Of a stretch of DNA of 64,000 bases, positions 23,581 through 42,699 are shown piece after piece (position 1 is the stretch's first letter; each line of letters opens with the position of its first letter). Where the stretch lies: contig CM075103.1 of NCBI GenBank assembly GCA_037576195.1, positions 16,678,001 to 16,742,000 of the forward strand, given 5' to 3'. The stretch is from Phytoseiulus persimilis. Its lineage: Eukaryota > Arthropoda > Arachnida > Mesostigmata > Phytoseiidae. Both the position numbers and the translations under genes were made by a program. Below the pieces are notes generated by a model. That model searched no databases and had not been told where the DNA came from. It worked only from the letters and a program-made list of their open reading frames with translations.

Positions 23581-23755
23581 CAAAACAGATCTGTAATCGC
23601 GTAATCGTGCATTCGAGTAATGTCACATGCAATGCTCCCCACATCGGAAGATTCCGGCTGTAATCTACGAACGACTGTTCTGTGTAGGAGGGAGTTGTTG
23701 AGTAGTTGATGTTTTACCCAGAGCGGTCGTCGGCACTATGCGGATAGTCAGGGTC

Positions 23756-24028
23756 CCTTTGTTTCCCGGCTGAACCTCTCAGCCAGCCCTCAGAAGTGTC
23801 CCGGAATCACCCGCGGTATTGCTTCAGTAACACTCCCTATGGCCTCGCAAATCCCATTGCGGGCGGTGGGCTTGGTTCTTAAGATGGTTCAGACTTAATT
23901 CTGATATGAATTAAAACCTCTTTTTACCACATAAGAAATTTGTTTTCCCGGCCGGGGCTCGAACCCGCGATTGCTAGCTTAGCGTGGCACCCAAGGCGTT
24001 GGTTTATGCCACACGGCCAACGAGCCGA
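23756..24028 (-). mobile_element. tRNA-derived SINE, copy 1
   Basis: 273 bp flanked by a perfect 15-bp target duplication CGGATAGTCAGGGTC (23,741-23,755 and 24,029-24,043). On the minus strand it starts with a tRNA-like head: an A-box-like TGGCCGTGTGGC and a B box GGGTTCGAGCCC. It ends in an A-rich tail (the T-rich plus-strand start). A second copy of the same length lies at 42,079-42,351. Such SINEs are transcribed by RNA polymerase III and moved by a LINE. Confidence 0.9.
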
Positions 24029-24146
24029 CGGATAGTCAGGGTCGACGCCAGTCGAATGGGCGAAGCGTCGGTTTACTACAATTACTATAAATTACTGAGA
24101 TAGAGCTCGGACGTCTGAAGACTTAGGTCGGGCGTCAGCAATCGCT

Positions 24147-24970: not shown

Positions 24971-25073
24971 ACCAGCCGGCCTTTGGCCGACTGGAGTCGG
25001 CCGCGCTGCGCGCGGTTGGACGGCGCTCCCTGCCATCGAGGCACTTTTCTCTCCTTTCACTGGGTCAGCATTC
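24971..25073 (+). repeat. Satellite leader, copy 1 (hairpin-containing)
   Basis: About 103 bp beginning ACCAGCCGGCC contain the hairpin GGCCGACT-GG-AGTCGGCC (24,985-25,002), a GCGCTGCGCGC tract and CTTTCACTGGGTCAGCATTC. They are nearly identical to 28,607-28,709 and partly to 48-90. The leader stands immediately before the first monomers of array A. Confidence 0.85.
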
Positions 25074-28000
25074 TGATTTTGAAAAATATGGTCAGTATGA
25101 CCCCGGAATCACCCCTCCGGAGTTGGGAAGTAATGCTCAGATTAGTCACGGAATCACCTCTCCACAGTTGGAAATTAATGCTTAGAATGAGTCCGGAATC
25201 ACCCCTCCAGAGTTGGAGAGTAATGCTCGGATTGACCCCGGAATCACCCCTACAGAGTTGGAAAGAAATGCTCAGATTGGCCCCGGAATCACCCCTGCAG
25301 AGTTGGAAAGTAATTCTCAGATTGATCACGGAATCACCTCTCCAGAGTTGGAAATTAATGCTCAGATTGAGCCCGGAATCACCCCTCCAGAGTTGGGAAG
25401 TAATGCTCAGATTGGTCTCGGAATCACCCCTTCAGAGTTGGAAAGTAATCCTCAAATTAGTCACGGAATCACCTCTCCAGAGTTGGAAATTGATGCTTAG
25501 AATGAGTCCGGAATCACCCCTCCAGAGTTGGAAAGTAATACTCAGATTGGTCACGGAATCACCTCTTCAGAGTTGGAAATTAATGCTCAGATTGAGCCCG
25601 GAATCACCCCTCCAGAGTTGGGAAGTAATGCTCAGATTGGTCACGGAATCACCTCTCCAGAGTTGGACATAAATGCTCAGATTGACCCCGGAATCAACCC
25701 TTCAGAGTTGGAAAGTAATGCTCAGATTGGTCACGGAATCACCTCTCCAGAGTTGGAAATTAATGCTCAGATTGACCCCGGAATCACCCCTACAGAGTTG
25801 GAAAGTAATGCTCAGATTGGTCACGGAATCACCTCTCCAGAGTTGGAAATTGATGCTCAGATTGAGCCCGGAATCACCCCTCCAGAGTTGGGAAGTAATG
25901 CTCAGATTGGTCACGGAATCACCTCTCCAGAGTTGGAAAGAAATGCTCAGATTGAGCCCGGAACCACCCCTCCAGAGTTGGGAAGTAATGCTCAGATTGG
26001 TCACGGAATCACCTCTCCAGAGTTGGAAAGAAATGCTCAGATTGACCCCGGAATCAACCCTTCAGAGTTGGAAAGTAATGCTGAGATTGGTCACGGAATC
26101 ACCTCTCCAGAGTTGGAAATTAATGCTCAGATTGACCCCGGAATCACCCCTACAGAGTTGGAAAGTAATGCTCAGATTGGTCACGGAATCACCTCTCCAG
26201 AGTTGGAAATTGATGCTCAGATTGAGCCCGGAATCACCCCTCCAGAGTTGGGAAGTAATGCTCAGATTGGTCACGGAATCACCTCTCCAGAGTTGGAAAG
26301 AAATGCTCAGATTGAGCCCGGAACCACCCCTCCAGAGTTGGGAAGTAATGCTCAGATTGGTCACGGAATCACCTCTCCAGAGTTGGAAGGAAATGCTCAG
26401 ATTGACCCCGGAATCACCCCTACAGAGGTGGGAAGTAATGCTCGGATTGGTCACGGAATCACCTCTCCAGAGTTGGAAATTAATGCTTAGATTGAGCCCG
26501 GAATCACCCATCCAGAGTTGGGAAGTGATGCTCAGATTGGTCACGGAATCACCTCTCCAGAGTTGGAAAGAAATGCTCAGATTGGTCTCGGAATCAACCC
26601 TTCAGAGTTGGAAAGTAATGCTCAGATTGGTCACGGAATCACCTCTCCAGAGTTGGAAATTAATGCTCAGATTGGTCACGGAATCACCTCTCCAGAGTTG
26701 GAAATTAATGCTCAGATTGAGCCCGGAATCACCCCTCCAGAGTTGGGAAGTAATGCTCAGATTGGTCACGGAATCACCTCTCCAGAGTTGGAAAGAAATG
26801 CTCAGATTGACCCCGGAATCACCCCTACAGAGTTGGGAAGTAATGCTCAGATGGGTCACGGAATCACCTCTGCAGAGTTGGAAAGAAATGCTCGGATTGA
26901 CCCCGGAATCACCCCTACAGAGTTGGAAAGTAATGCTCAGATTGGTCACGGAATCACCTCTCCAGAGTTGGAAATTAATGCTCAGGCTGACCCCGGAATC
27001 ACCCCTACAGAGTTGGAAAGTAATGCTCAGATTGGTCACGGAATCACCTCTCCAGAGTTGGAAATTAATGCTCAGATTGAGCCCGGAATCACCCCTCCAG
27101 AGTTGGGAAGTAATGCTCAGATTGGTCACGGAATCACCTCTCCAGAGTTGGAAATTAATGCTCAGATTGAGCCCGGAATCACCCCTCCAGAGTTGGGAAG
27201 TAATGCTCAGATTGGTCACGGAATCACCTCTCCAGAGTTGGAAAGAAATGCTCAGATCGACCCCGGAATCACCCCTACAGAGTTGGGAAGTAATGCTCAG
27301 ATTGGTCACGGAATCACCTCTCCAGAGTTGGAAAGAAATGCTCAGACTGACCCCGGAATCACCCCTACAGAGTTGGGAAGTAATGCTCAGATTGGTCACG
27401 GAATCACCTCTCCAGAGTTGGAAATTAATGCTCAGATTGAGCCCGGAATCACCCCTCCAGAGTTGGGAAGTAATGCTCAGATTGGTCACGGAATCACCTC
27501 TCCAGAGTTGGAAAGAAATGCTCAGATTGACCCCGGAATCACCCCTACAGAGTTGGGAAGTAATGCTCAGATTGGTCACGGAATCACCTCTGCAGAGTTG
27601 GAAAGAAATGCTCGGATTGACCCCGGAATCACCCCTACAGAGTTGGAAAGTAATGCTCAGATTGGTCACGGAATCACCTCTCCAGAGTTGGAAATTAATG
27701 CTCAGATTGACCCCGGAATCACCCCTACAGAGTTGGAAAGTAATGCTCAGATTGGTCACGGAATCACCTCTCCAGAGTTGGAAATTAATGCTCAGATTGA
27801 GCTCGGAATCACCCCTCCAGAGTTGGGAAGTAATGCTCAGATTGGTCACGGAATCACCTCTCCAGAGTTGGAAAGAAATGCTCGGATTGACCCCGGAATC
27901 ACCCCTACAGAGTTGGAAAGTAATGCTCAGATTGGTCACGGAATCACCTCTCCAGAGTTGGAAGGAAATGCTCAGATTGGTCTCGGAGTCACCCCTCCAG

Positions 28001-28550
28001 AGTTGGAAAGTAATGGTCAGGTTGGTCTCGGAATCAGCCCTCCAGCTTTTGAAAAGTATGGTCAGGTTGGTCCCGGAATCACCCCTCCAGAGTTGGGAAG
28101 TAATGGTCAGATTGGTCTCGGAATCACCCCTCCAGAGTTGGGAAGTAATGCTCAGATTGACCCCGGAATCAACCCTCCAGAGTTGGGAAGTAATGCTCAG
28201 ATTGACCCCGGAATCAACCCTCCAGAGTTGGGAAGTAATGCTCAGATCGGTCTCGAAATCACCCCTCTAGAGTTGGAAAGTAATGCTCAGATTGAGCCCG
28301 GAATCACCCCTCCAGACTCGGAGAAGTATGGTCAGGTTGGTCATGGAATCACTCCTCCAGAGTTGGGAAGTAATGGTCAGATTGGTCCCGGAATCACCCC
28401 TCCAGCTTTCGAAAAGTATGGTCAGATTGGTCCCGGAATCACCCCTCCACGTTCTGGAAAGCATGGTCAGATCGGTTCCGGAATCACCCCTCCAGCTTTT
28501 GAAAAGTATGGTCAGATTGGTCCCGGAATCACCCTCACATCTTTCAGAGA
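25074..28550 (+). repeat. 45-bp satellite array A (alternating dimers)
   Basis: About 77 tandem monomers of 45 bp. The core reads AGTTGGAAAGTAATGCTCAG, then ATT, a variable five-base block (GGTCA, GGTCT, GAGCC or GACCC), CGGAATCAC and CCCTCCAG. Down most of the array the GGTCACGGAATCACCTCT type alternates with the GACCC/GAGCC type, giving a 90-bp dimer. The last 11 monomers (28,010-28,550) diverge, with GGTCAG in place of GCTCAG and CTTTYGAAAAGTATG in place of AGTTGGAAAGTAATG. Because 45 is a multiple of three, long frames are open on both strands, but frame 1 has TAG stops at 25,186, 25,498 and 26,488. Confidence 0.97.
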
Positions 28551-28606
28551 AAGTGCGGACAAACAGACAAACTGACAAACTCACAGACGAAGCCGATCCT
28601 TACTAT
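28551..28606 (+). repeat. Array A tail (8-bp GACAAACT repeats)
   Basis: AAGTGCGGACAAACAGACAAACTGACAAACTCACAGACGAAGCCGAT (in parts) is an 8-bp (GACAAACT-like) repeat, followed by CCTTACTATA. The same tail ends array B, its two truncated copies and, inverted, array C. It abuts leader copy 2. Confidence 0.85.
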
Positions 28607-28709
28607 ACCAGCCGGCCTTTGGCCGACTGGAGTCGGCCGCGCTGCGCGCACTTGGACGGCGCTCCCTACCATCGAGGCACTTTTCTCTCCCTTCACTGGG
28701 TCAGCATTC
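28607..28709 (+). repeat. Satellite leader, copy 2
   Basis: Near-identical to 24,971-25,073, including the hairpin at 28,621-28,638. It stands directly after the tail of array A and before array B, so the two units are joined head to tail. Confidence 0.85.
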
Positions 28710-31700
28710 CAACTTTGAAAAGTATGGTCAGATTGGTGTCGGAATCACCCCTCTAGAGTTGGAAAGTAATGCTCAGACTGACCCCGGAATCACCCCTCCA
28801 GAGTTGGAAAGTAATGCTCAGATTGGTCTCGGAATCACCCCCCCAGAGTTGGAAAGTAATGCTCAGATTGAGCCCGGAATCACCCCTCCAGAGTTGGAAA
28901 GTAATGCTCAGATTGGTCTCGGAATCACCCCTCCAGAGTTGGAAAGTAATGCTCAGATTGAGCCCGGAATCACCCCTCCAGAGTTGGGAAGTAATGCTCA
29001 GATCGGTCTCGAAATCACCCCTCCAGAGTTGGGAAGTAATGCTCAGATTGACCCCGGAATCAACCCTCCAGAGTTGGGAAGTAATGCTCAGATCGGTCTC
29101 GAAATCACCCCTCCAGAGTTGGGAAGTAATGCTCAGATTGACCCCGGAATCAACCCTCCAGAGTTGGGAAGTAATGCTCAGATTGACCCCGGAATCAACC
29201 CTCCAGAGTTGGGAAGTAATGCTCAGATCGGTCTCGAAATCACCCCTCTAGAGTTGGAAAGTAATGCTCAGATTGAGCCCGGAATCACCCCTCCAGAGTT
29301 GGGAAGTAATGCTCAGATTGGTCTCGGAATCACCCCTCCAGAGTTGGGAAGTAATGCTCAGATCGGTCTCGAAATCACCCCTCCAGAGTTGGAAAGTAAT
29401 GCTCAGATCGGTCTCGAAATCACCCCTCCAGAGTTGGAAAGTAATGCTCAGATTGAGCCCAGAATCACCCCTCCAGAGTTGGAAAGTAATGCTCAGATCG
29501 GTCTCGAAATCACCCCTCCAGAGTTGGAAAGTAATGCTCAGATTGACCCCGGAATCACCCCTCCAGAGTTGGGAAGTAATGCTCAGATCGGTCTCGAAAT
29601 CACCCCTCCAGAGTTGGAAAGTAATGCTCAGATTGGTCTCGGAATCACCCCTCCAGAGTTGGGAAGTAATGCTCAGATTGGTCTCGAAATCACCCCTCCA
29701 GAGTTGGGAAGTAATGCTCAGATCGGTCTCGAAATCACCCCTCCAGAGTTGGGAAGTAATGCTCAGATTGACCCCGGAATCAACCCTCCAGAGTTGGGAA
29801 GTAATGCTCAGATTGACCCCGGAATCAACCCTCCAGAGTTGGGACGTAATGCTCAGATCGGTCTCGAAATCACCCCTCTAGAGTTGGAAAGTAATGCTCA
29901 GATTGAGCCCGGAATCACCCCTCCAGAGTTGGGAAGTAATGCTCAGATTGGTCTCGGAATCACCCCTCCAGAGTTGGGAAGTAATGCTCAGATCGGTCTC
30001 GAAATCACCCCTCCAGAGTTGGAAAGTAATGCTCAGATCGGTCTCGAAATCACCCCTCCAGAGTTGGAAAGTAATGCTCAGATTGAGCCCAGAATCACCC
30101 CTCCAGAGTTGGAAAGTAATGCTCAGATCGGTCTCGAAATCACCCCTCCAGAGTTGGAAAGTAATGCTCAGATTGACCCCGGAATCACCCCTCCAGAGTT
30201 GGGAAGTAATGCTCAGATCGGTCTCGAAATCACCCCTCCAGAGTTGGAAAGTAATGCTCAGATTGGTCTCGGAATCACCCCTCCAGAGTTGGGAAGTAAT
30301 GCTCAGATTGGTCTCGAAATCACCCCTCCAGAGTTGGAAAGTAATGCTCAGATTGAGCCCGGAATCACCCCTCCAGAGTTGGAAAGTAATGCTCAGATCG
30401 GTCTCGAAATCACCCCTCCAGAGTTGGAAAGTAATGCTCAGATTGGTCTCGGAATCACCCCTCCAGAGTTGGAAAGTAATGCTCAGATTGACCCCGGAAT
30501 CACCCCTCCAGAGTTGGGAAGTAATGCTCAGATCGGTCTCGAAATCACCCCTCCAGAGTTGGAAAGTAATGCTCGGATTGAGCCCGGAATCACCCCTCCA
30601 GAGTTGGAAAGTAATGCTCAGATCGGTCTCGAAATCACCCCTCCAGAGTTGGAAAGTAATGCTCAGATTGAGCCCGGAATCACCCCTCCAGAGTTGGAAA
30701 GTAATGCCCAGATTGGTCTCGGAATCACCCCTCCAGAGTTGGGAAGTAATGCTCAGATCGGTCTCGAAATCACCCCTCCAGAGTTGGAAAGTAATGCTCA
30801 GATCGGTCTCGAAATCACCCCTCCAGAGTTGGGAAGTAATGCTCAGATTGACCCCGGAATCAACCCTCCAGAGTTGGGAAGTAATGCTCAGATCGGTCTC
30901 GAAATCACCCCTCTAGAGTTGGGAAGTAATGCTCAGATTGGTCTCGGAATCACCCCTCCAGAGTTGGAAAGTAATGCTCAGATTGAGCCCGGAATCACCC
31001 CTCCAGAGTTGGGAAGTAATGCTCAGATTGGTCTCGGAATCACCCCTCCAGAGTTGGGAAGTAATGCTCAGATCGGTCTCGAAATCACCCCTCCAGAGTT
31101 GGAAAGTAATGCTCAGATCGGTCTCGAAATCACCCCTCCAGAGTTGGAAAGTAATGCTCAGATTGAGCCCGGAATCACCCCTCCAGAGTTGGAAAGTAAT
31201 GCTCAGATCGGTCTCGAAATCACCCCTCCAGAGTTGGAAAGTAATGCTCAGATTGACCCCGGAATCACCCCTCCAGAGTTGGGAAGTAATGCTCAGATCG
31301 GTCTCGAAATCACCCCTCCAGAGTTGGAAAGTAATGCTCAGATTGGTCTCGGAATCACCCCTCCAGAGTTGGGAAGTAATGCTCAGATTGGTCTCGAAAT
31401 CACCCCTCCAGAGTTGGAAAGTAATGCTCAGATTGAGCCCGGAATCACCCCTCCAGAGTTGAAAAGTAATGCTCAGATCGGTCTCGAAATCACCCCTCCA
31501 GAGTTGGAAAGTAATGCTCAGATTGACCCCGGAATCACCCCTCCAGAGTTGGGAAGTAATGCTCAGATTGGTCTCGGAATCACCCCTCCAGAGTTGGAAA
31601 GTAATGCTCAGATTGGTCTCGGAATCACCCCTCCAGAGTTGGAAAGTAATGCTCAGATTGACCGCGGAATCACCCCTCCAGAGTTGGGAAGTAATGCTCA

Positions 31701-33087
31701 GATCGGTCTCGAAATCACCCCTCCAGAGTTGGAAAGTAATGCTCAGATCGGTCTCGAAATCACCCCTCCAGAGTTGGAAAGTAATGCTCAGATCGGTCTC
31801 GAAATCACCCCTCCAGAGTTGGAAAGTAATGCTCAGATTGAGCCCGGAATCACCCCTCCAGAGTTGGAAAGTAATGCCCAGATTGGTCTCGGAATCACCC
31901 CTCCAGAGTTGGGAAGTAATGCTCAGATCGGTCTCGAAATCACCCCTCCAGAGTTGGAAAGTAATGCTCAGATCGGTCTCGAAATCACCCCTCCAGAGTT
32001 GGAAAGTAATGCTCAGATTGAGCCCGGAATCACCCCTCCAGAGTTGGAAAGTAATGCTCAGATTGAGCCCGGAATCACCCCTCCAGAGTTGGAAAGTAAT
32101 GCTCAGATCGGTCTCGAAATCACCCCTCCAGAGTTGGAAAGTGATGCTCAGATTGACCCCGGAATCACCCCTCCAGAGTTGGAAAGTAATGCCCAGATTG
32201 GTCTCGGAATCACCCCTCCAGAGTTGGGAAGTAATGCTCAGATCGGTCTCGGAATCACCCCTCCAGAGTTGGGAAGTAATGCTCAGATCGGTCTCGAAAT
32301 CACCCCTCCAGAGTTGGGAAGTAATGCTCAGATTGGTCTCGGAATCACCCCTCCAGAGTTGGGAAGTAATGCTCAGATCGGTCTCGAAATCACCCCTCCA
32401 GAGTTGGAAAGTAATGCTCAGATCGGTCTCGAAATCGCCCCTCCAGAGTTGGAAAGTAATGCTCAGATCGGTCTCGAAATCACCCCTCCAGAGTTGGGAA
32501 GTAATGCTCAGATCGGTCTCGAAATCACCCCTCCAGAGTTGGGAAGTAATGCTCAGATCGGTCTCGAAATCACCCCTCCAGAGTTGGGAAGTAATGCTCA
32601 GATTGGTCTCGGAATCACCCCTCCAGAGTTGGAAAGTAATGCTCAGATCGGTCTCGGAATCACCCCTCCAGAGTTGGGAAGTAATGCTCAGATCGGTCTC
32701 GAAATCACCCCTCCAGAGTTGGGAAGTAATGCTCAGATTGGTCTCGGAATCACCCCTCCAGAGTTGGGAAGTAATGCTCAGATCGGTCTCGAAATCACCC
32801 CTCCAGGGTTGGAAAGTAATGCTCAGATCGGTCTCGAAATCGCCCCTCAAGAGTTGGGAAGTAATGCTCAGATTGGTCTCGGAATCACCCCTCCAGAGTT
32901 GGGAAGTAATGCTCAGATTGGTCTCGGAATCATCCCTCCTCGTTCTGAAAGGTATGATCAGATCGGTTCCAGAATCACCCCTCCAGCTTTCAAAATGTAT
33001 AATCAGACTCGTACCGGAATCACCTCTCCAGACTCGGGACAGTATGGTCAGATTGGTCCCGGAATCATCCCCATGTGTTCCAGAAAA
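28710..33087 (+). repeat. 45-bp satellite array B
   Basis: About 95 tandem 45-bp monomers with no indel over more than 4 kb. Three main types (GGTCTCGAAATC, GGTCTCGGAATC, GAGCCCGGAATC) recur in blocks. The order at 29,264-29,730 is repeated at 29,894-30,360 (630 bp, 14 monomers later) and from 30,974. The last three monomers diverge (CGTTCTGAAAGGTATGATCAG, CTTTCAAAATGTATAATCAG). One plus frame is open for 1,450 codons, but two other frames are also open for long distances. Confidence 0.97.
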
Positions 33088-33149
33088 AGTGCGGACAAAC
33101 AGACAAACTGACAAACTTACAGACGAAGCCGATTATATATAGTAAGGAT
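33088..33149 (+). repeat. Array B tail
   Basis: AGTGCGGACAAACAGACAAACTG and onward, ending GCCGATTATATATAGTAAGGAT. This is the same tail as array A up to GCCGAT; the last part carries the reverse complement of CCTTACTATA. Confidence 0.85.
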
Positions 33150-33341
33150 CGGTTCCAGAATCACCCCTCCAGCTTTCAAAATGTATAATCAGACTCGTAC
33201 CGGAATCACCTCTCCAGACTCGGGACAGTATGGTCAGATTGGTCCCGGAATCATCCCCATGTGTTCCAGAAAAAGTGCGGACAAACAGACAAACTGACGA
33301 ACTGACAAACTTACAGACGAAGCCGATTATATATAGTAAGG
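33150..33341 (+). repeat. 5'-truncated copy 1 of the array B end
   Basis: Starts inside the third-last monomer region (CGGTTCCAGAATCACCCCTC) and runs to the same tail end (GCCGATTATATATAGTAAGGA). The tail has four 8-bp units, one more than array B. The junction shares GAT with the source. Confidence 0.85.
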
Positions 33342-33490
33342 ACGTACCGGAATCACCTCTCCAGACTCGGGACAGTATGGTCAGATTGGTCCCGGAATCA
33401 TCCCCATGTGTTCCAGAAAAAGTGCGGACAAACAGACAAACTGACAAACTGACAAACTTACAGACGAAGCCGATTATATATAGTAAGGAT
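33342..33490 (+). repeat. 5'-truncated copy 2 of the array B end
   Basis: Starts further downstream (CGTACCGGAATCACCTCTCC) and ends at the same tail and GTAAGGAT. It has four 8-bp tail units. Together with copy 1 it gives a nested set with a common 3' end. Confidence 0.85.
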
Positions 33491-36400
33491 AAGGATAGTA
33501 AGGATATAATCGGCTTCGTCTGTAAGTTTGTCAGTTTGTCAGTTTGTCTGTTCGTCCCCACTTTTTCTGGAACATATGGGGGTGATTCCGGGACCAATCT
33601 GACCTTGACTGTCCCGAGTCTGGAGAGGTGATCCCGGTACGAGTCTGATTATACATTTTGAAAGCTGGAGGGGTGATTCTGGAACCGATCTGATCATACT
33701 TTTCAGAACGAGGAGGGGTGATTCCGAGACCAATCTGAGCATTACTTCCCAACTCTGGAGGGGTGATTTCGAGACCGATCTGGGCATTTCTTTCCAACTC
33801 TGGAGGGGTGATTCCGGGGTCAATCTGAGCATTACTTCCCAACTCTGGAGGGGTGATTCCGAGACCAATCTGGGCATTTCTTTCCAACACTGGAGGGGTG
33901 ATTCCGGGGTCAATCTGAGCATTACTTCCCAACTCTGGAGGGGTGATTCCGAGACCAATCTGGGCATTTCTTTCCAACACTGGAGGGGTGATTCCGGGGT
34001 CAATCTGAGCATTACTCCCCAACTCTGGAGGGGTGATTCCGAGACCAATCTGAGCATTACTTCTCAACTCTGAACGGGGTGATTCCGAGACCAATCTGAG
34101 CATTACTTTCCAACTCTGGAGGGGTGATTCCGGGGCCAATCTGGGCATTACTTTCCAACTCTGGAGGAGCGATTCCGGGACCAATCTGAGCATTACTCCC
34201 CAAGTCTAGAGGGGTGATTCCGGGACCAATCTGGCCATTACTTTCCAAGTCTGGAGGGGTGATTCCGAGACCAATCTGAGCATTACTTTCCAAGTCTGGA
34301 GGGGTGATTCCGGGACCAATCTGGCCAGTACTTTCCAACTCTGGAGGGGTGATCCCGGGACCAATCCGGCCATGACTTTCCAACTGTGGAGGGGTGATTC
34401 CGAGACCAATCTGAGCATTTCTCTCCAAGTCTGGAGGGTTGATTCCGGGACCAAACTGGCCATTACTCTCCAACTCTGGAGGGGTGATTCCGAGAGCAAT
34501 CTGACCATTACTTCCCAAGTCTGGAGGGTTGATTCCGAGACCAATCTGAGCACTACTCTCCAAGTCTGGAGGGGTGATTCCGAGACCAGTCTGACCATTA
34601 CTTTCCAACTCTGGAGGCGTGATTCCGGGACCAATCTGAGCATTACTTTCCAAGTCTGGAGGGGTGATTCCGGGACCAATCTGGCCAGTACTTTCCAACT
34701 CTGGAGGGGTGATTCCGAGACCAATCTGAGCATTACTTTCCAAGTCTGGAGGGGTGATTCCGGGACCAATCTGGCCAGTACTTTCCAACTCTGGAGGGGT
34801 GATTCCGGGACCAATCCGGCCATGACTTTCCAACTGTGGAGGGGTGATTCCGAGACCAATCTGAGCATTTCTCTCCAAGTCTGGAGGGTTGATTCCGGGA
34901 CCAAACTGGCCATTACTCTCCAACTCTGGAGGGGTGATTCCGAGACCAATCTGAGCATTACTTCCCAACTCTGGAGGGGTGATTTCGAGACCGATCTGGG
35001 CATTTCTTTCCAACTCTGGAGGGGTGATTCCGGGGTCAATCTGAGCATTACTTCCCAACTCTGGAGGGGTGATTCCGAGACCAATCTGGGCATTTCTTTC
35101 CAACACTGGAGGGGTGATTCCGGGGTCAATCTGAGCATTACTTCCCAACTCTGGAGGGGTGATTCCGAGACCAATCTGGGCATTTCTTTCCAACACTGGA
35201 GGGGTGATTCCGGGGTCAATCTGAGCATTACTCCCCAACTCTGGAGGGGTGATTCCGAGACCAATCTGAGCATTACTTCTCAACTCTGAACGGGGTGATT
35301 CCGAGACCAATCTGAGCATTACTTTCCAACTCTGGAGGGGTGATTCCGGGGCCAATCTGGGCATTACTTTCCAACTCTGGAGGAGCGATTCCGGGACCAA
35401 TCTGAGCATTACTCCCCAAGTCTAGAGGGGTGATTCCGGGACCAATCTGGCCATTACTTTCCAAGTCTGGAGGGGTGATTCCGAGACCAATCTGAGCATT
35501 ACTTTCCAAGTCTGGAGGGGTGATTCCGGGACCAATCTGGCCAGTACTTTCCAACTCTGGAGGGGTGATCCCGGGACCAATCCGGCCATGACTTTCCAAC
35601 TGTGGAGGGGTGATTCCGAGACCAATCTGAGCATTTCTCTCCAAGTCTGGAGGGTTGATTCCGGGACCAAACTGGCCATTACTCTCCAACTCTGGAGGGG
35701 TGATTCCGAGAGCAATCTGACCATTACTTCCCAAGTCTGGAGGGTTGATTCCGAGACCAATCTGAGCACTACTCTCCAAGTCTGGAGGGGTGATTCCGAG
35801 ACCAGTCTGACCATTACTTTCCAACTCTGGAGGCGTGATTCCGGGACCAATCTGAGCATTACTTTCCAAGTCTGGAGGGGTGATTCCGGGACCAATCTGG
35901 CCAGTACTTTCCAACTCTGGAGGGGTGATTCCGAGACCAATCTGAGCATTACTTTCCAAGTCTGGAGGGGTGATTCCGGGACCAATCTGGCCAGTACTTT
36001 CCAACTCTGGAGGGGTGATTCCGGGACCAATCCGGCCATGACTTTCCAACTGTGGAGGGGTGATTCCGAGACCAATCTGAGCATTTCTCTCCAAGTCTGG
36101 AGGGTTGATTCCGGGACCAAACTGGCCATTACTCTCCAACTCTGGAGGGGTGATTCCGAGAGCAATCTGACCATTACTTCCCAAGTCTGGAGGGTTGATT
36201 CCGAGACCAATCTGAGCACTACTCTCCAAGTCTGGAGGGGTGATTCCGAGACCAGTCTGACCATTACTTTCCAACTCTGGAGGCGTGATTCCGAGACCAA
36301 TCTGAGCATTACTCCCCAAGTCTAGAGGGGTGATTCCGGGACCAATCTGGCCATTACTTTCCAAGTCTGGAGGGGTGATTCCGAGACCAATCTGAGCATT

Positions 36401-36990
36401 ACTTTCCAAGTCTGGAGGGGTGATTCCGGGACCAATCTGGGCATTACTTTCCAACTCTGGAGGAGTGATTCCGGGACCAATCTGAGCATTACTCCCCAAG
36501 TCTAGAGGGGTGATTCCGGGACCAATCTGGCCATTACTTTCCAAGTCTGGAGGGGTGATTCCGAGACCAATCTGAGCATTACTTTCCAAGTCTGGAGGGG
36601 TGATTCCGGGACCAATCTGGCCAGTACTTTCCAACTCTGGAGGGGTGATTCCGGGACCAATCCGGCCATGACTTTCCAACTGTGGAGGGGTGATTCCGAG
36701 ACCAATCTGAGCATTTCTCTCCAAGTCTGGAGGGTTGATTCCGGGACCAAACTGGCCATTACTCTCCAACTCTGGAGGGGTGATTCCGAGAGCAATCTGA
36801 CCATTACTTCCCAAGTCTGGAGGGTTGATTCCGAGACCAATCTGAGCACTACTCTCCAAGTCTGGAGGGGTGATTCCGAGACCAGTCTGACCATTACTTT
36901 CCAACTCTGGAGGCGTGATTCCGAGACCAATCTGGCCATTACTCTCTAACTCTGGAGGGGTGATTCCGGGACCAATCCGGCCATGACTTT
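33491..36990 (-). repeat. 45-bp satellite array C, inverted, part 1
   Basis: From 33,491 the tail is met in inverted orientation (ATAATCGGCTTCGTCTGTAA), then the diverged end monomers and about 75 ordinary monomers, all on the minus strand. A 27-monomer block with a one-base insertion (CTGAACGGGG in place of CTGGAGGGG) occurs at 34,060-34,080 and again at 35,276-35,296, exactly 1,216 bp apart. Further blocks repeat 1,080 bp on. The array is cut at 36,995 by a BEL element and continues at 41,891. Confidence 0.96.
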
Positions 36991-36995
36991 CCAAC

Positions 36996-37538
36996 TGTGG
37001 CGTACGGATGGGCCCTAGCGCTAAGACTCTAGCACATCACATCCATGTCACACAGGATGAACACATTACACATAGGAGATTGAGCAGTCTGGGAGTTTCA
37101 GAATAGACTGTGCATTTCATTAAAGCAATCTCTTGTCGAATAAGCTCAAGCAGAGCTGCAAGTGTCAAATATACAAGGAGGTCCTTCCGCACTGGGTTCG
37201 TCCGGTGACGCACGGTCACCATCAGCTGGCAGGGAGTTCGGATGCAGAGCAACTCTGTCTCCACGTTTTCCTTCAGAGTGACGTCTCGCATCAGCTGACA
37301 ATAGTCTGTTGGTCAATGAGATCCGCCATCTTGGAAGAACACGTTGCGCAGCAACCTCGTCACCCGACGAGTCTTTTGTTCTCCATCCGTATCATCATCG
37401 GGAAATCCCCTTTTTCCGATCTCACCCGTCTGCCGGCACCCGCCTGGCCAGCGACTAGACGGGCTCAGTGCGCCAGAACACCTATAAGAAACGAAAACAG
37501 ACGTGTATTCATTTCTTGCATCCGAGGTGTGAGCCACA
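36996..37538 (+). repeat. 5' LTR of the BEL element
   Basis: 543 bp, TG...CA ends. It contains an ATTAAA at about 37,119 and a TATAAG at 37,483. It differs from the 3' LTR by scattered substitutions and two small indels (about 20 and 7 bp), so the insertion is not brand new. Confidence 0.93.
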
Positions 37539-37790
37539 AAATTGGTGTCAGAAGTTTAGAACCGAACTCAGCCCGCACATTCGTCGGAGCCCGGCAATAT
37601 TTCTAGAGAAATTACTGGCAGGGCCACAGCGGAAGTTCTACCCGTGTGCAGCTTCAACGGCAGACCACCCGGCAGCCTTCAGAAGCATCAGAGGCGAAGC
37701 TCCTCAGCACAGATATACACCCCAGGGCCGCTTGGATTGAACCGGTCAGCTCACCCCAAGTCGTAATTCATTAATACATTCGATGTCAGC

Positions 37791-40278
37791 ATGTCTCAAA
37801 ACGCAGGCGCATCGTCAAATCCAACCACGGGAGTTGCGGCCGACGGCCAAGAGCCAGAGGGTCGGCTAACCGCTTATGGCTACCCGGTGCTTCCATATCC
37901 ACCTACGACGAGCAATGCGGATCGGCAACTACCGACCGGCAGTGCTTTCAGCGAGTACAGAGTACAGAGTGAACACAGCTCGGACGGTGAGATGGAGTCA
38001 GAATTCTATACGCAGATATCTCTGTCAGACACTTTGGACAACCGGACCGGTGAGCAAGTCGCAAGACGCTCCGCGCAGGTTGGAGAAGGCAGGCAGGAGG
38101 TTGGTGGAGCCGTGGCAGTTACTCCTCGCGCCTCCCCCGCTCCCCGAGCTAATCAACCAGAACCCGCAGCAGAGGTGGTTAAACTCCACCGCAGACTCGC
38201 GCAGCTACGAGGTCGAGTCAAGGCGTTTGTTGACGACGCCGCAACGTTCTACAAGGAAGGCATTGACAGAAGACAGGCCGTGTCGAAGGTTGACGACCTG
38301 AAGGATACACTGGCGTCGCTGCTGGAGCAGTGGCTGAGTACAGTCACAACAATATCTATGGTAGCGTCGCAGGAACCCGAACAGGAGTTCTACGACGAGG
38401 CCAGCAAGACAGAAAGAGATATCCGGGAATCGCTCAGGTATCTCAAAGATCTGCGTATATTCCTAGTCAACAGCATCACCGCAGAGAGGTCTCGATCTCA
38501 GTCGGCCCGAGATCCAGACGATACGTCTTGGGCCAGCCCTCTGATCCACGTACCGTGGAGGTCATCCACCAAAAATGAGGAGGGTCTCCGGCCGGAGGTG
38601 GTTCTTGGGGCGTCGGCATTAGCTGAGGTCTCAAAAATTTCTCCCAAGAACTCTCTTCAGGAACAAGCTCCAATTCCGGAGATGGCCCCGCACAGTGTAG
38701 CTGGTGTAGGGAATTTGTCAAGTGGCATTCCAAGTATGCAACAGCTCGAACCGAATTGGCACCCGCCTTTGGCAGCGCCGCGAGCGCAATGCGTGAACCC
38801 ACAGGCAACACAAGAAGACCCAGCAAATCATCTTCCTAAGCTGAACAAAAACTCCAAAATGCCGAGGTTCAACGGCGACGTCAAGGAATCCCGAAAATTC
38901 ATGAGCACGTTCAACGTCTTCGTTCATGATAGACAAATTCCGGACCTACAAAAAATGCTGCTCCTACACGAATCGCTGTCAGGCAAAGCATATCACAGTG
39001 TGAAACACCTGGACCTCAGTGCGGAAAACTATATCCCGATGCGACGAATACTGGAGAAATCCTTGGACCAAATCCTGTCATCAGGGGGTGAAATCCGTTA
39101 CGATAAGTTGCCCAATTTTGTTAACTCAATCTCCCAACACATATTGGCACTCATTTCTCTAGGAGAATCCTATACAACACTTTCACCTTCCTACGCAAAC
39201 AGGGTCCTAGATAAACTTTCCAGGGAGACACAACACAAATTCATGACAGCTTTCAGGGACACACACAAGCAAACACACGCGTGCAAACTCGAAGCGTTAG
39301 TGGCTTTTCTAGAGTCAGAGTCCCGAATAATTGAAGCTCTCACGTCGAATCGAAGCCTGAATGTTAGACAGCAGCCGTCCAACTTCAACCCAAACAGAAG
39401 AGCAGCGACGGACTACAACCAGCGGAGCCCGCAGCTGACTCGAGGTCATACGAATCAGAGACGGGAATTCAACAACTCCAACGGCAAGCAAAACCCTACG
39501 TCGTACAAGAGTGCAACGACCAACTTCCACGTGGCATCGCGGTCGGCAGTAGCACCAAGTCGGCGAGTTCCTACACCACCTCAGAGAAAACAGAAAATAA
39601 GCTGTATATTCTGCGAAGGCGATCACCCACCGTACCGGTGTACGGCAACCCTGTCACACCAAGAACGGAAAGAGAGAGCCGAGGCGGCGAAGGCTTGCCT
39701 GAAGTGTCTCAAGCTCAACCATGAAGCGAAGAGTTGCAAGGAGGCGTTCAGGAAGGTCTGTCGCTACTGCAAAGGGGAACATTACTCGATCATTTGCAGC
39801 AAGGCCCCCATGGACATACAGGAAGAGAAGTCGACAGTTTCCAGCGTCAACCTGAAGACGGAGATCCATGACAGACCGGTATATCTATGGACGGCCCACG
39901 TTTGGGCAGAAGTCGGCGACAAGCGGGTGTTATGCAGAATACTCATAGATCCTGGCTCGCAGTCTTCCCACATTACGCACGCCATGGTCGGGAAGCTTCA
40001 CTCAGTTCCTGAGAGACACATCGACATGGCGATGTCTACGGCAGGAGGAAGAGTCACCAACATTCGCAACTGTGGAGTCCACCACATAATCTTGCGGAGC
40101 AGGTACGACGAACGGAAATCCCTCTCCCTAGAGGCGGTGGAACTGAAGTGCCCGTCTAGGGCAAAATTTCCCATCTTGAGGGAAGACTTCGGTCTGAAAC
40201 GCCTGGCCGACCGCGTCCCAGAGGGCGAATTAGAATGGATCGACATTTTACTCGGAACAGAGAAAATGGCACGCATAG
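37791..40278 (+). CDS. gag-pro: BEL/Pao Gag with zinc knuckles, plus aspartic protease
   Basis: The frame opens at an ATG (MSQNAG) 252 bp after the 5' LTR. Residues 1-340 are Ser/Pro-rich with charged helices. Residues 350-560 form the BEL Gag core (DUF1759-like: 'MPRFNGDVKESRKFMSTFNVF' split here as two motifs, 'LLLHESLSGKAYHSV'). Three CCHC-like knuckles follow at about 605-669 ('CIFCEGDHPPYRC', 'CLKCLKLNHEAKSC', 'CRYCKGEHYSIIC'). The protease (DUF1758-like) has 'LIDPGSQSSHIT' at about 716-730, with DPG in place of the usual D-S/T-G. The frame is lost near 40,260-40,282 and the homologous protein continues in frame +1; without the shift it ends at 40,481. Products would assemble retrotransposon particles in the cytoplasm. 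Confidence 0.88.
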
Positions 40279-40770
40279 GGTTCGTTCGGCGATGTTTTCG
40301 CTTTCGACAGCATGTTCGAATTCATTCTAGGGGGAACGACAACGGACTCAGTGCCTGGCGAGAGTGCAATGACTCGATTCTGCGGTTTCGAAATTGTCCA
40401 GGAGGCGAAATGCTCTTCCCCAATATACCAGGCAGAATCTATAGGAACGGAGCTAGCGGAACAGTCCACGTCGCCCTTTAACAGGAAATCACAAACGATG
40501 GAAGACATTCGGTTCCTGTGGACTTCGGAGGATGTCGGCTTCGGAAGAGAAGCGAGCGAAGATAAAGAGGAGGAGGATGAGCTGAATGAAGCTCTGATGA
40601 AGAACTTCCGCGAGACTACATACCGTGATGAGACGAACCGTTACGTCATTCGGCTTCAGCCGAAGGACAATGTGTTGTCGCTGGGAGACAATCACAATTT
40701 GGCTCTCTCTCGGCTATATTCTCTCTTGAACAAGCTTCAGAAGGACCCAAATCTTAAGTCGCCCAATTAA
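40279..40770 (+). pseudogene. Protease end and truncated reverse transcriptase start
   Basis: This is the continuation of the BEL polyprotein in the +1 frame ('FAFDSMFEFILGG', 'FCGFEIVQEA', 'RFLWTSEDVG', 'ETNRYVIRLQP', 'ALSRLYSLLNKLQKDPNL'). It ends at TAA 40,768-40,770, before any RT catalytic motif. BEL/Pao normally encodes one continuous gag-pol frame, so the frameshift is probably a mutation; programmed shifting is possible but no slippery site stands out. Confidence 0.75.
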
Positions 40771-40902
40771 GAAGCTTTACCCAATAGTGAAGTCAGAATG
40801 AACAGGTCTACGAAGTCTTCTACATGGCTAGTATTCTTTTTTGGCTACGAACGTTCGTCAAAATAAGACATCAGTAGCGCGAATATAGCATTGCTACAAA
40901 AA

Positions 40903-41259
40903 TTTATTACAAAATATAAACTTTCATGAACACGTTCAAGATCGGTGGGCCGGGCCGGCCTGGGTGGTGGCCGAGCGGTCGTACGATGCGAGGATTGCGC
41001 GCACTTGATCTTGAACGGGACGGGAGGACCTGGAGCCGGCCGGGCCTTGCGCCCGCTGAACGCGTGCCGTTTGTTGTCGGGCATCGCGCTGCTCCAATAC
41101 CCTATACCGGGTTTCCTCCCAGGCGAAGTTCTGCTCGATGACCCGCCGTCGGAAGGCTTGGTCCGTAAGGGGCTCACCCCGCATAAACAAGGGTCGAGAG
41201 CCCAGTACGGAGTCCACGGTGATGTTGCGGGGCTCCACGAGGGAGTCCCGTTCTAGCAT
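40903..41259 (-). CDS. Antisense ORF in the BEL 3' region, with AATAAA
   Basis: A GC-rich minus-strand frame of 107 codons (41,259-40,936) lies between the truncated pol and the 3' LTR. It has 'RRRVIEQNFAWEETRYRVLEQ' (helical, charged) and an Ala/Arg/Gln-rich end. An AATAAA on the same strand lies at 40,908-40,903, 28 bp past the stop. No family is recognised. It could be a captured host 3' exon or an antisense gene of the element. Confidence 0.4.
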
Positions 41260-41320
41260 GGCGAGGTACTCGACGCTGTACGAATCCGTCGAATTCCGTC
41301 AGCGGAATTCCCCGGGGGAC

Positions 41321-41890
41321 TGTGGCGTACGGATGGGCCCTAGCTCTAAGACTCGGATGGACGCACGACGACGTTAGCACATCACATCCATGTCACACAG
41401 GATGAACATATTACACATGGGAGATTGAGCAGTCTAGGAGTTTCAGAATAGAATGTGCATTTTATTAAAGCAATCTCTCGTCGGATAAGCTCAAGCAGAG
41501 CTGCAAGCGTCAAATATACAAGGAGGTCCTTCGGCACTGGGATCGTCCGGTGACGCACGGTCACCATCAGCTGGCGGGGAGTTCGGATGCAGAGCAACTC
41601 TGTCTCCACGTTTTCCTTCAGAGTGACGTCTCGCATCAGCTGACAATAGTCTGTTGGTCAATGAGATCCGCCATCTTGGAAGGATACGTTGCGCAGCAAC
41701 CTCGTCATCCGACGAGTCTTTTGTTCTCCATCCGTATCATCATCGTGAAATCCCCTTTTTCCGATCTCACCCGTCTGCCGTCAGCCGGCACCCGCCTGGC
41801 CAGCGACTGGACGGGCTCAGTGCGCCAGAACACCTAAAAGAAACGAGAACAGACGTGTACTCATTTCTTGCATCCGAGGTGTGAGCCACA
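41321..41890 (+). repeat. 3' LTR of the BEL element
   Basis: 570 bp, same ends as the 5' LTR, with extra CGGATGGACGCACGACGACG and CCGTCAG segments. The sequence just before it (CGGAATTCCCCGGGGGAC) is the only polypurine-tract candidate and is weak. Confidence 0.93.
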
Positions 41891-42510
41891 CCAACTTTGG
41901 AGGGGTGATTCCGAGACCAATCTGGCCATTACTTCCCAAGTCTGAAGGGGTGATTCCGGGACCAATCTGGCCATTATTTTCCAAGTGTGGAGGGGTGATC
42001 CCGACACCAATCTGACCATTACTTCCCAAGCCTGGAGGGGTGATTCCGAGACCAATCTGAGCATTACTCTCCAAGTCTTTTTTGTTTTCCGGCTGAACCT
42101 CTCAGCCAGCCCTCAAAAGTGTCGCGGAATCACCTTTCGGTATTGCTTCAGTGACACTCCCTATCGCCTCGCAAATCCCATTGCGGGCGGTGGGCTTGGG
42201 TCTTAAGATGGTTCAGATTTAATTCTGATATGAATTAAATCCTCTTTTTACCACATAAGAAATTTGTTGTCCCGGCCGGGGATCGAACCCGCGATTGCTA
42301 GCTTAGCGTGGCATCCAAGGCGTTGGTTTATGCCACACGGCCAACGAGCCGTTACTCTCCAAGTCTGGAGCGGTGATTCCGGGACCAATCTGGCCATTAC
42401 TTTCCAACTCTGGAGAGGTGATTCCGAGACCAATCTGAGCATTACTTTCCAAGTCTGGAGGGGTGATTCCGAGACCAATCTGACCATTACTTTTCAACTC
42501 TGAAACGGTG
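41891..42510 (-). repeat. Satellite array C, part 2, split by a SINE
   Basis: About 7-8 further 45-bp monomers on the minus strand (41,891-42,078 and 42,352-42,510) continue the array across the BEL insertion. They use the GGTCAG-type monomers. The array ends at about 42,510. Confidence 0.92.
42079..42351 (-). mobile_element. tRNA-derived SINE, copy 2, inside the satellite
   Basis: 273 bp, homologous over its full length to copy 1. It is flanked by a perfect 15-bp duplication of satellite sequence, TTACTCTCCAAGTCT (42,064-42,078 and 42,352-42,366). The minus strand has the tRNA-like head with B box GGGTTCGATCCC and an A-rich 3' end. Confidence 0.92.
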
Positions 42511-42699
42511 ATTCAGAGGCCAATCTGGTTTGCAGGCAAATCGGTTGACTGGAAATCTGTTATGGGCGACATGTATGGAAGACGAATCGGGAAGCCAGAC
42601 ATCTGTACACCCTGGCGGAAGGGAAAAATGAGGTTACTCCACAGGCACTTCTCCGAGGAAGTGAGCGATTTCACATTCAGAGAAAAAATACTAACATTC

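Follow-up and report, generated by a model that had tools for sequence, protein, structure and literature searches.

Helitrons are recognized by TC and CTAG/CTRR ends, a palindrome of 16 to 20 bases at a distance of 10–15 bases from the 3′ end, and an A and a T at the flanks (PMC2267711). Their copies are known to lie head to tail, to acquire new 3′ ends and to insert next to one another (PMC2267711, PMC4778049), and Helraiser has an AT-rich insertion bias that is strongest beyond the transposon 3′ end (PMC4778049). Satellite-like arrays have been described in non-autonomous Helentrons, that is, in those of the oyster (PMC7492417), in DINE-TR1 of Drosophila (PMC6947457) and in HINE of a mite (PMC4067079). 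Here we describe a mobile unit with a 45-bp minisatellite from the mite Phytoseiulus persimilis, found in a stretch of 64,000 nucleotides (“the window”, C3:16678001-16742000; the genome has 181 Mb in 127 contigs, including four of 28 to 55 Mb). In the window, 45-bp tandem units run from ~25,104 to 33,072, with a “leader” sequence between them at 28,608, and run inverted from ~33,579 to 37,000. A preliminary description had noted that copies of the “tail” of one array are stacked at 33,086-33,570, and had proposed that the leader-array-tail unit was copied by target-primed reverse transcription. Our data indicate that the unit is almost certainly a non-autonomous Helitron, composed of a 5′-TC, a unique 5′ module of ~190 bp, a 45-bp array of variable length, a unique palindromic 3′ module and CTGG-3′. 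The evidence consists of the ends themselves, insertion at A^T, free of duplication at the sites tested, the dispersal of copies, a nest of elements, and a 3′ terminus in common with a locus that has a RepHel frame.

The unit reads on the minus strand of the window, as do the elements that we call W1 and el2; a third element, D, is on the plus strand. On the minus strand it begins TCCTTACTATATATAATCGGC, preceded by a host A, and finishes GGCCGACTCCAGTCGGCCAAAGGCCGGCTGG, with the palindrome followed by CTGG and then a T. The “common 3′ end” of the preliminary description is the Helitron 5′ (TC) end, and its “variable 5′ end” corresponds to the 3′ end of the Helitron. The tail thus named is the 5′ module (LTS) and the leader is the 3′ end (RTS). 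The 5′ terminus is TCCTTACTATATATAATC both in the window and in dispersed copies, the loci having been selected by this same end, and its first nine bases fit the maize 5′ pattern TC[TC][CA]TA[CT]TA at eight of nine positions, later positions fitting worse (PMC2267711). At the 3′ terminus CTGG stood beside T in 20 of 21 copies and CTGA was found in L085, the junctions being located by that sequence; L102 has three extra bases there. The palindrome, GGCCGACTCCAGTCGGCC, is 18 nt long and lies 13 nt before the 3′ end in W1, el2 and L112, both values being within the Helitron range. Aligned leaders have ACCAGCCGGCCTTTGGCCGACTGGAGTCGGCCGCG in common, with some changes, and the sequence preceding it differs at each locus.

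Empty sites identified the point of insertion. The joined flanks of L021 aligned without gaps to L039 over 111 bp at 91.9% identity, with the insertion at A^T, and those of L012 (111 bases) were spanned by three other places in the genome at 94, 90 and 79%. Nothing was gained or lost at these A^T sites, and ordinary target-primed reverse transcription is therefore excluded at them. The join of L104 and L105 lies in a Helitron TC end, and L032 spans it in an alignment of 81 bases with gaps, at 80% identity; L104 and el2 are both A^T insertions within other Helitron ends. Comparison of common words between the two flanks of 17 loci revealed no convincing target duplication.

The flanks also revealed a preference on one side of the unit. 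In the 21 leader-side flanks (L106 was left out, as its stretch stops short of the junction, and W1, W2, L021 and L104 lie in or near the family’s own sequence), plus-strand position −5 was A in 14, −6 was T in 15 and −7 was A or T in 19, which is TAWWA in the Helitron direction. TAT occurred within 16 bp on the 3′ side in 15 of these 21 flanks, in the next 16 bp in one, and in the third 16-bp interval in three, counted in sufficiently long flanks only. On the tail side, 58 rows were read, from which eight within the family’s own repeats were dropped; the 50 remaining flanks had no motif past the first T, itself conserved in 46, and no poly-A was seen in them.

Both ends of the unit are dispersed through the genome. 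A 27-base tail pattern, allowing up to three mismatches, had 551 matches, and its reversed control had none; the 45 tail matches listed are on C1–C4, most of them ending within one base of query position 80. A sister form, GACTAAGCC, had 138 exact matches. The leader, searched with a 32-base pattern and its own control, had 340 matches, the control again having none. Tails and leaders are listed on C1–C4 and on small contigs. Pairing, like the proximity to RepHel genes given below, was assessed with 100 of the 340 leaders (one with a mismatch) and 70 of the 551 tails. Twenty-two of the 70 exact tails had a leader on the same strand within 20 kb upstream (three of the 22 are the window’s stacked tails, which share one leader), compared with one of 70 for a leader on the opposite strand and none of 70 for a leader downstream. 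That leader, array and tail form one mobile, dispersed unit, as had been proposed, is thus borne out. The other case foreseen, in which all tails would sit in a single tandem cluster with identical flanks, is not what the genome shows: L025, L027, L028, L029 and L069 have a common flank, and the other flanks read differ, apart from a few tandem sets. Whole-unit tandem repeats were found at L016/L023 and L017/L018/L026. The 45-bp unit itself had 47,394 genome matches, which is ~2.1 Mb or 1.2% of the genome if each represents 45 bp. Five tail matches, four of them spaced 85 bp, lie at C3:16417842-16418293, where a short tandem array seems to have formed from the transposon end itself.

Four copies of the end lie at 33,086-33,570, as first reported. 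The sequence GCCGATTATATATAGTAAGGAT is at 33128-33149, 33322-33343 (one mismatch) and 33469-33490, compared with a shuffle mean of 0.00. Copy 2 (33149-33342) and copy 1 are identical at all 185 aligned bases, their alignment having 8 gap bases, and copy 3 (33343-33489) is identical to copy 2 at 146 of 147. The copies had been thought to finish at exactly the same base. They do have the common end AGTAAGGA, copy 3 included, but the T that follows is host or array sequence (it is C after copy 2), and in copy 3 extra terminal units follow. The fourth copy is inverted, as had been noted; it starts at 33505 without its terminal 11 bases, which were found on the far side of el2 (Table 1). When D was rejoined by scripted excision of el2 and copies 2 and 3 (28608-33504), the junction TCCTTACTATA^TATAATCGGC was an exact family end. 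Since el2 and copies 2 and 3 interrupt D, and the end of D rejoins exactly, the inverted copy is the element that received an insertion; it did not arise through inverted reverse transcription. The order of events at this site was W1 (24972-28596 in full), then D, inverted, into the TC end of W1, and then el2 with copies 2 and 3 into the TC end of D. The stacking of copies 2 and 3 could reflect a concatemer, adjacent insertion or recombination, and exchange between arrays is, beside the new 3′ ends and adjacent insertions known for Helitrons, a possible source of the loss of their 3′ parts.

Table 1. Coordinates in the window of the nested elements and of the repeats that interrupt them.
Feature	Position	Strand	Basis and remarks
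W1 3′ end (RTS, “leader”)	24972..25104	-	leader alignment, junctions; inner border approximate
W1 CTGG end, complement of host T at 24971; palindrome	24972; 24985-25002	-	junctions, coordinates
W1 45-bp array	25105..28540	-	TRF; 72 exact 45-bp units split out; borders approximate
W1 5′ (LTS) region	28541..28596	-	cut at GAAGCCGA, the entry point of D
D, first 11 bases, TCCTTACTATA	28597..28607	+	separated from the rest of D by el2
el2 3′ end (RTS)	28608..28740	-	palindrome 28621-28638; leader alignment; inner border approximate
el2 45-bp array	28741..32960	-	TRF; 92 exact 45-bp units split out; borders approximate
el2 5′ (LTS) module, the tail of the preliminary description	32961..33148	-	TC end at 33148
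Copy 2	33149..33342	-	TC end at 33342, 3′ side truncated; match to copy 1
Copy 3	33343..33504	-	3′ side truncated; extra units TAAGGATAGTAAGGA at 33490-33504; match to copy 2
Rest of D, 5′ region and array	33505..36995	+	TRF, rejoining
Long terminal repeat (LTR) element in D’s array (DUF1759 protein)	36996..41890	.	5-bp duplication CCAAC; 3′ LTR from 41321
End of D’s array	41891..42528	+	TRF; interrupted by SINE-like repeat at ~42079-42353; finishes AATCTGG before T, without RTS palindrome

By eye, the SINE-like repeat (SINE, short interspersed nuclear element) that interrupts D has a similar copy, the two being at 23750-24030 and 42079-42353. The window contained no Rfam match above the gathering threshold and no tRNA; one sub-threshold Rfam microRNA match in the leader region was not used.

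A non-autonomous Helitron would depend on a RepHel protein supplied by a relative. The genome had 101 matches to a Helitron-like N domain, in frames of up to 1951 aa. The match at C3:24450345-24450878, on the plus strand, is in a frame of that length, and an RTS lies 2.9 kb downstream on the same strand, with its CTGG ending at 24453759. The last 48 bases of this RTS and of the window element are identical at 46 positions, and the 190 bases read inside it contained no 45-bp unit. We infer that this locus is probably an autonomous partner. The leaders and tails sampled had no other clear partner among the 101 RepHel positions, and a candidate autonomous copy 14 kb inside two leaders was rejected, as both leaders lead into 45-bp arrays. 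At C1:16664393-16664783 and C2:4886294-4886787, RepHel fragments adjoin a tail and a leader, which is how insertions of copies into old Helitron genes might look.

Judging from known Helitron biology, RepHel from autonomous relatives would nick the TC end and peel off one strand, and strand transfer would end at the palindrome and CTGG. The peeled strand would then be joined into a host A^T, usually where a TAWWA-like stretch lies a few bases past the 3′ end. Variation in array length, together with occasional loss of 3′ ends, could generate copies that are alike at the TC end and unlike at the other.

Several observations weigh against a canonical Helitron. Part of the palindrome is missing from L086 and L088, the truncation points of copies 2 and 3 differ from CTRR, and 12 of the 58 tail-side rows have at least one extra unit (6, 7 or 9 bases) at the terminus, which resembles slippage at a retroelement tail. 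The constancy of the TC end is partly a product of selection, as loci were picked mostly via the tail and copies without a TC end are under-sampled. Only two of 19 joined pairs (L021 and L104) were spanned when compared with other loci, and of the two pairs compared genome-wide, L012 was spanned and L087 had no place spanning its joined flanks. No RepHel match lies inside the window, and comparison with the RepHel locus at C3:24450345 covered its 3′ terminus. The extra units are AAGGAT, GTAAGGA or AGTAAGGAT and variants of these, for example, in L067, L090, L107 and at 33490-33504 of the window.

One alternative is that the unit is a Helentron or HINE. HINE, some with tandem repeats, are known from a predatory mite (PMC4067079), and the 101 RepHel matches could be of either RepHel type. 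We consider this quite unlikely. The unit has TC and CTGG ends, its empty sites are A^T and not the T-rich TT, and no subterminal inverted repeat of at least 7 bases, compared with the 11–15 bp of the Helentron criterion, was found between the first 60 bases of one 5′ end and the last 140 bases of one 3′ end. A second alternative, that the copies were produced only by local tandem or inverted duplication, unequal exchange or assembly error, is very unlikely. The near identity of copies 2 and 3 and the whole-unit tandems are what it would produce, and exchange may explain how those two copies came to be stacked, but 551 tails and 340 leaders are dispersed over C1–C4 and small contigs with flanks that differ at most sites read.

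Retroelements that carry tandem repeats do exist: SVA of apes is a mobile unit with an internal variable number tandem repeat of similar unit size and is moved by L1. A retroelement resembling a long interspersed nuclear element (LINE), a SINE or Penelope, with target-primed reverse transcription starting at the tail and truncation at the 5′ end, would account for a conserved end opposite a variable one, for short junction overlaps, inverted partial copies and the short terminal units, and could be linked to reverse transcriptase (RT) locus L032, with a tail-like stretch, TATATAGGAAGGAT, ~145 bases past its frame, or to L091, where a LINE is followed directly by a short array and tail. This explanation is hardly credible against empty sites without target duplication or loss, a target motif at the leader side and none at the tail, tail-side flanks without poly-A, two ends and an A^T target of Helitron type, the finding that L032 is a truncated LINE with sisters that have poly-A ends, and the ending of the L091 family without an array in four members.

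A LINE partner sharing the tail was sought in 30 RT loci (150 of 1905 RT candidates were scored). Among these 30 loci, a tail-like stretch past the frame was seen only in the cut-short L032. L034 has three tails, on the opposite strand, and was rejected, as was L091. The family of L091 has a short (ATT)n-like end; 45-bp arrays follow L051, L060 and L091, and L045, L049, L050 and L052 end at CGCTATT and are followed by other sequence.

The canonical Helitron described here is also repeatedly found inserted in other TC ends. The junction of CTGG with TTATATATAGTRA, in which the 3′ end is inside an inverted TC end, was found 43 times in the genome with up to two mismatches (20 exact; control 0). 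These 43 junctions and the 340 leader matches were counted separately, not as one set. A pattern for the opposite side of the site had 9 matches versus 43, an imbalance that may be caused by resident ends from families with other inner sequence or by duplicate matches. Both sides of one such insertion were seen at L104/L105; two more insertions of this kind, L110 and L112, were observed at their 3′ side and have different outer flanks. The host of L104 also resembles L032, a related end, and some resident ends therefore belong to a related family.

The minisatellite is itself a site of insertion. In a LINE family grouped by its pre-poly-A sequence, seven of eight copies with a visible poly-A junction (L031, L035, L037, L038, L039, L040 and L053, not L033) are at CTCCA^GA.TTG of the 45-bp unit, in arrays like that at 25105-33070 of the window. 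These junctions were read on the 3′ (poly-A) side only; no poly-A was seen in L032, L034, L046 and L048. The family appears to be site-specific, with the minisatellite as its target. That the 45-bp repeat is instead a 3′ untranslated region of the LINEs was rejected, as the poly-A junctions show insertion of LINEs into arrays. In the cluster L054–L057 and in L058 the end likewise lies in an array, here on the opposite strand. The 120 relatives listed of a LINE protein include two from Galendromus occidentalis, plus other arthropods.

We tentatively suggest that the Helitron may prefer a single A^T within TC ends, whether of its own family or of related ones, inserting there the opposite way round and so building inverted nests, and that the minisatellite may serve as a docking site for a site-specific LINE, a combination that is possible but that we rate below even chances. 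Incoming strands could be guided to a resident TC end by transposase bound there. A narrow search of literature listings returned no precedent for a transposon that spreads the landing pads of another.

In comparison to canonical Helitrons of the maize HelA and bat Helibat/Helraiser types, the unit has the same TC/CTRR ends and a palindrome upstream of the 3′ terminus, inserts at A^T without duplicating the target, and is biased towards AT-rich sequence on the 3′ side; its 3′ ends likewise vary, and copies can lie next to each other head to tail (PMC2267711, PMC4778049). It differs from them in having CTGG for CTAG, a body of 45-bp minisatellite, extra TC-end units in some copies, and repeated insertion at one site in TC ends. 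Cg_HINE, a family of non-autonomous Helentrons of the Pacific oyster, is likewise dispersed, with satellite-like central arrays between conserved flanks; unlike our element it has subterminal inverted repeats, and it carries a microsatellite, for which the element here was examined only as regards GACAAACT tail repeats (PMC7492417). DINE-TR1 of Drosophila (PMC6947457) and HINE-Mo of the mite Metaseiulus occidentalis (PMC4067079) are also rolling-circle elements with tandem repeats, the latter, unlike ours, being of the Helentron type with subterminal inverted repeats and a T-rich target (PMC4067079).

Rolling-circle elements with tandem-repeat cores have thus been published (PMC7492417, PMC6947457, PMC9659126, PMC4067079), and the earlier statement that no such element is known does not hold; the canonical-ended family here adds another. 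What look unusual are the recurrent insertion into Helitron TC ends and the site-specific LINEs in the minisatellite. For sequence scans there is a caution, in that a common end with a variable other end does not prove reverse transcription. To cases that, in the sources cited, have so far mostly been Helentrons, the family adds a canonical-ended Helitron with a tandem-repeat core, and, as a natural test system, it could show whether new insertions are drawn to resident transposon ends. For P. persimilis, the element explains the spread of a 45-bp minisatellite through a 181-Mb genome.

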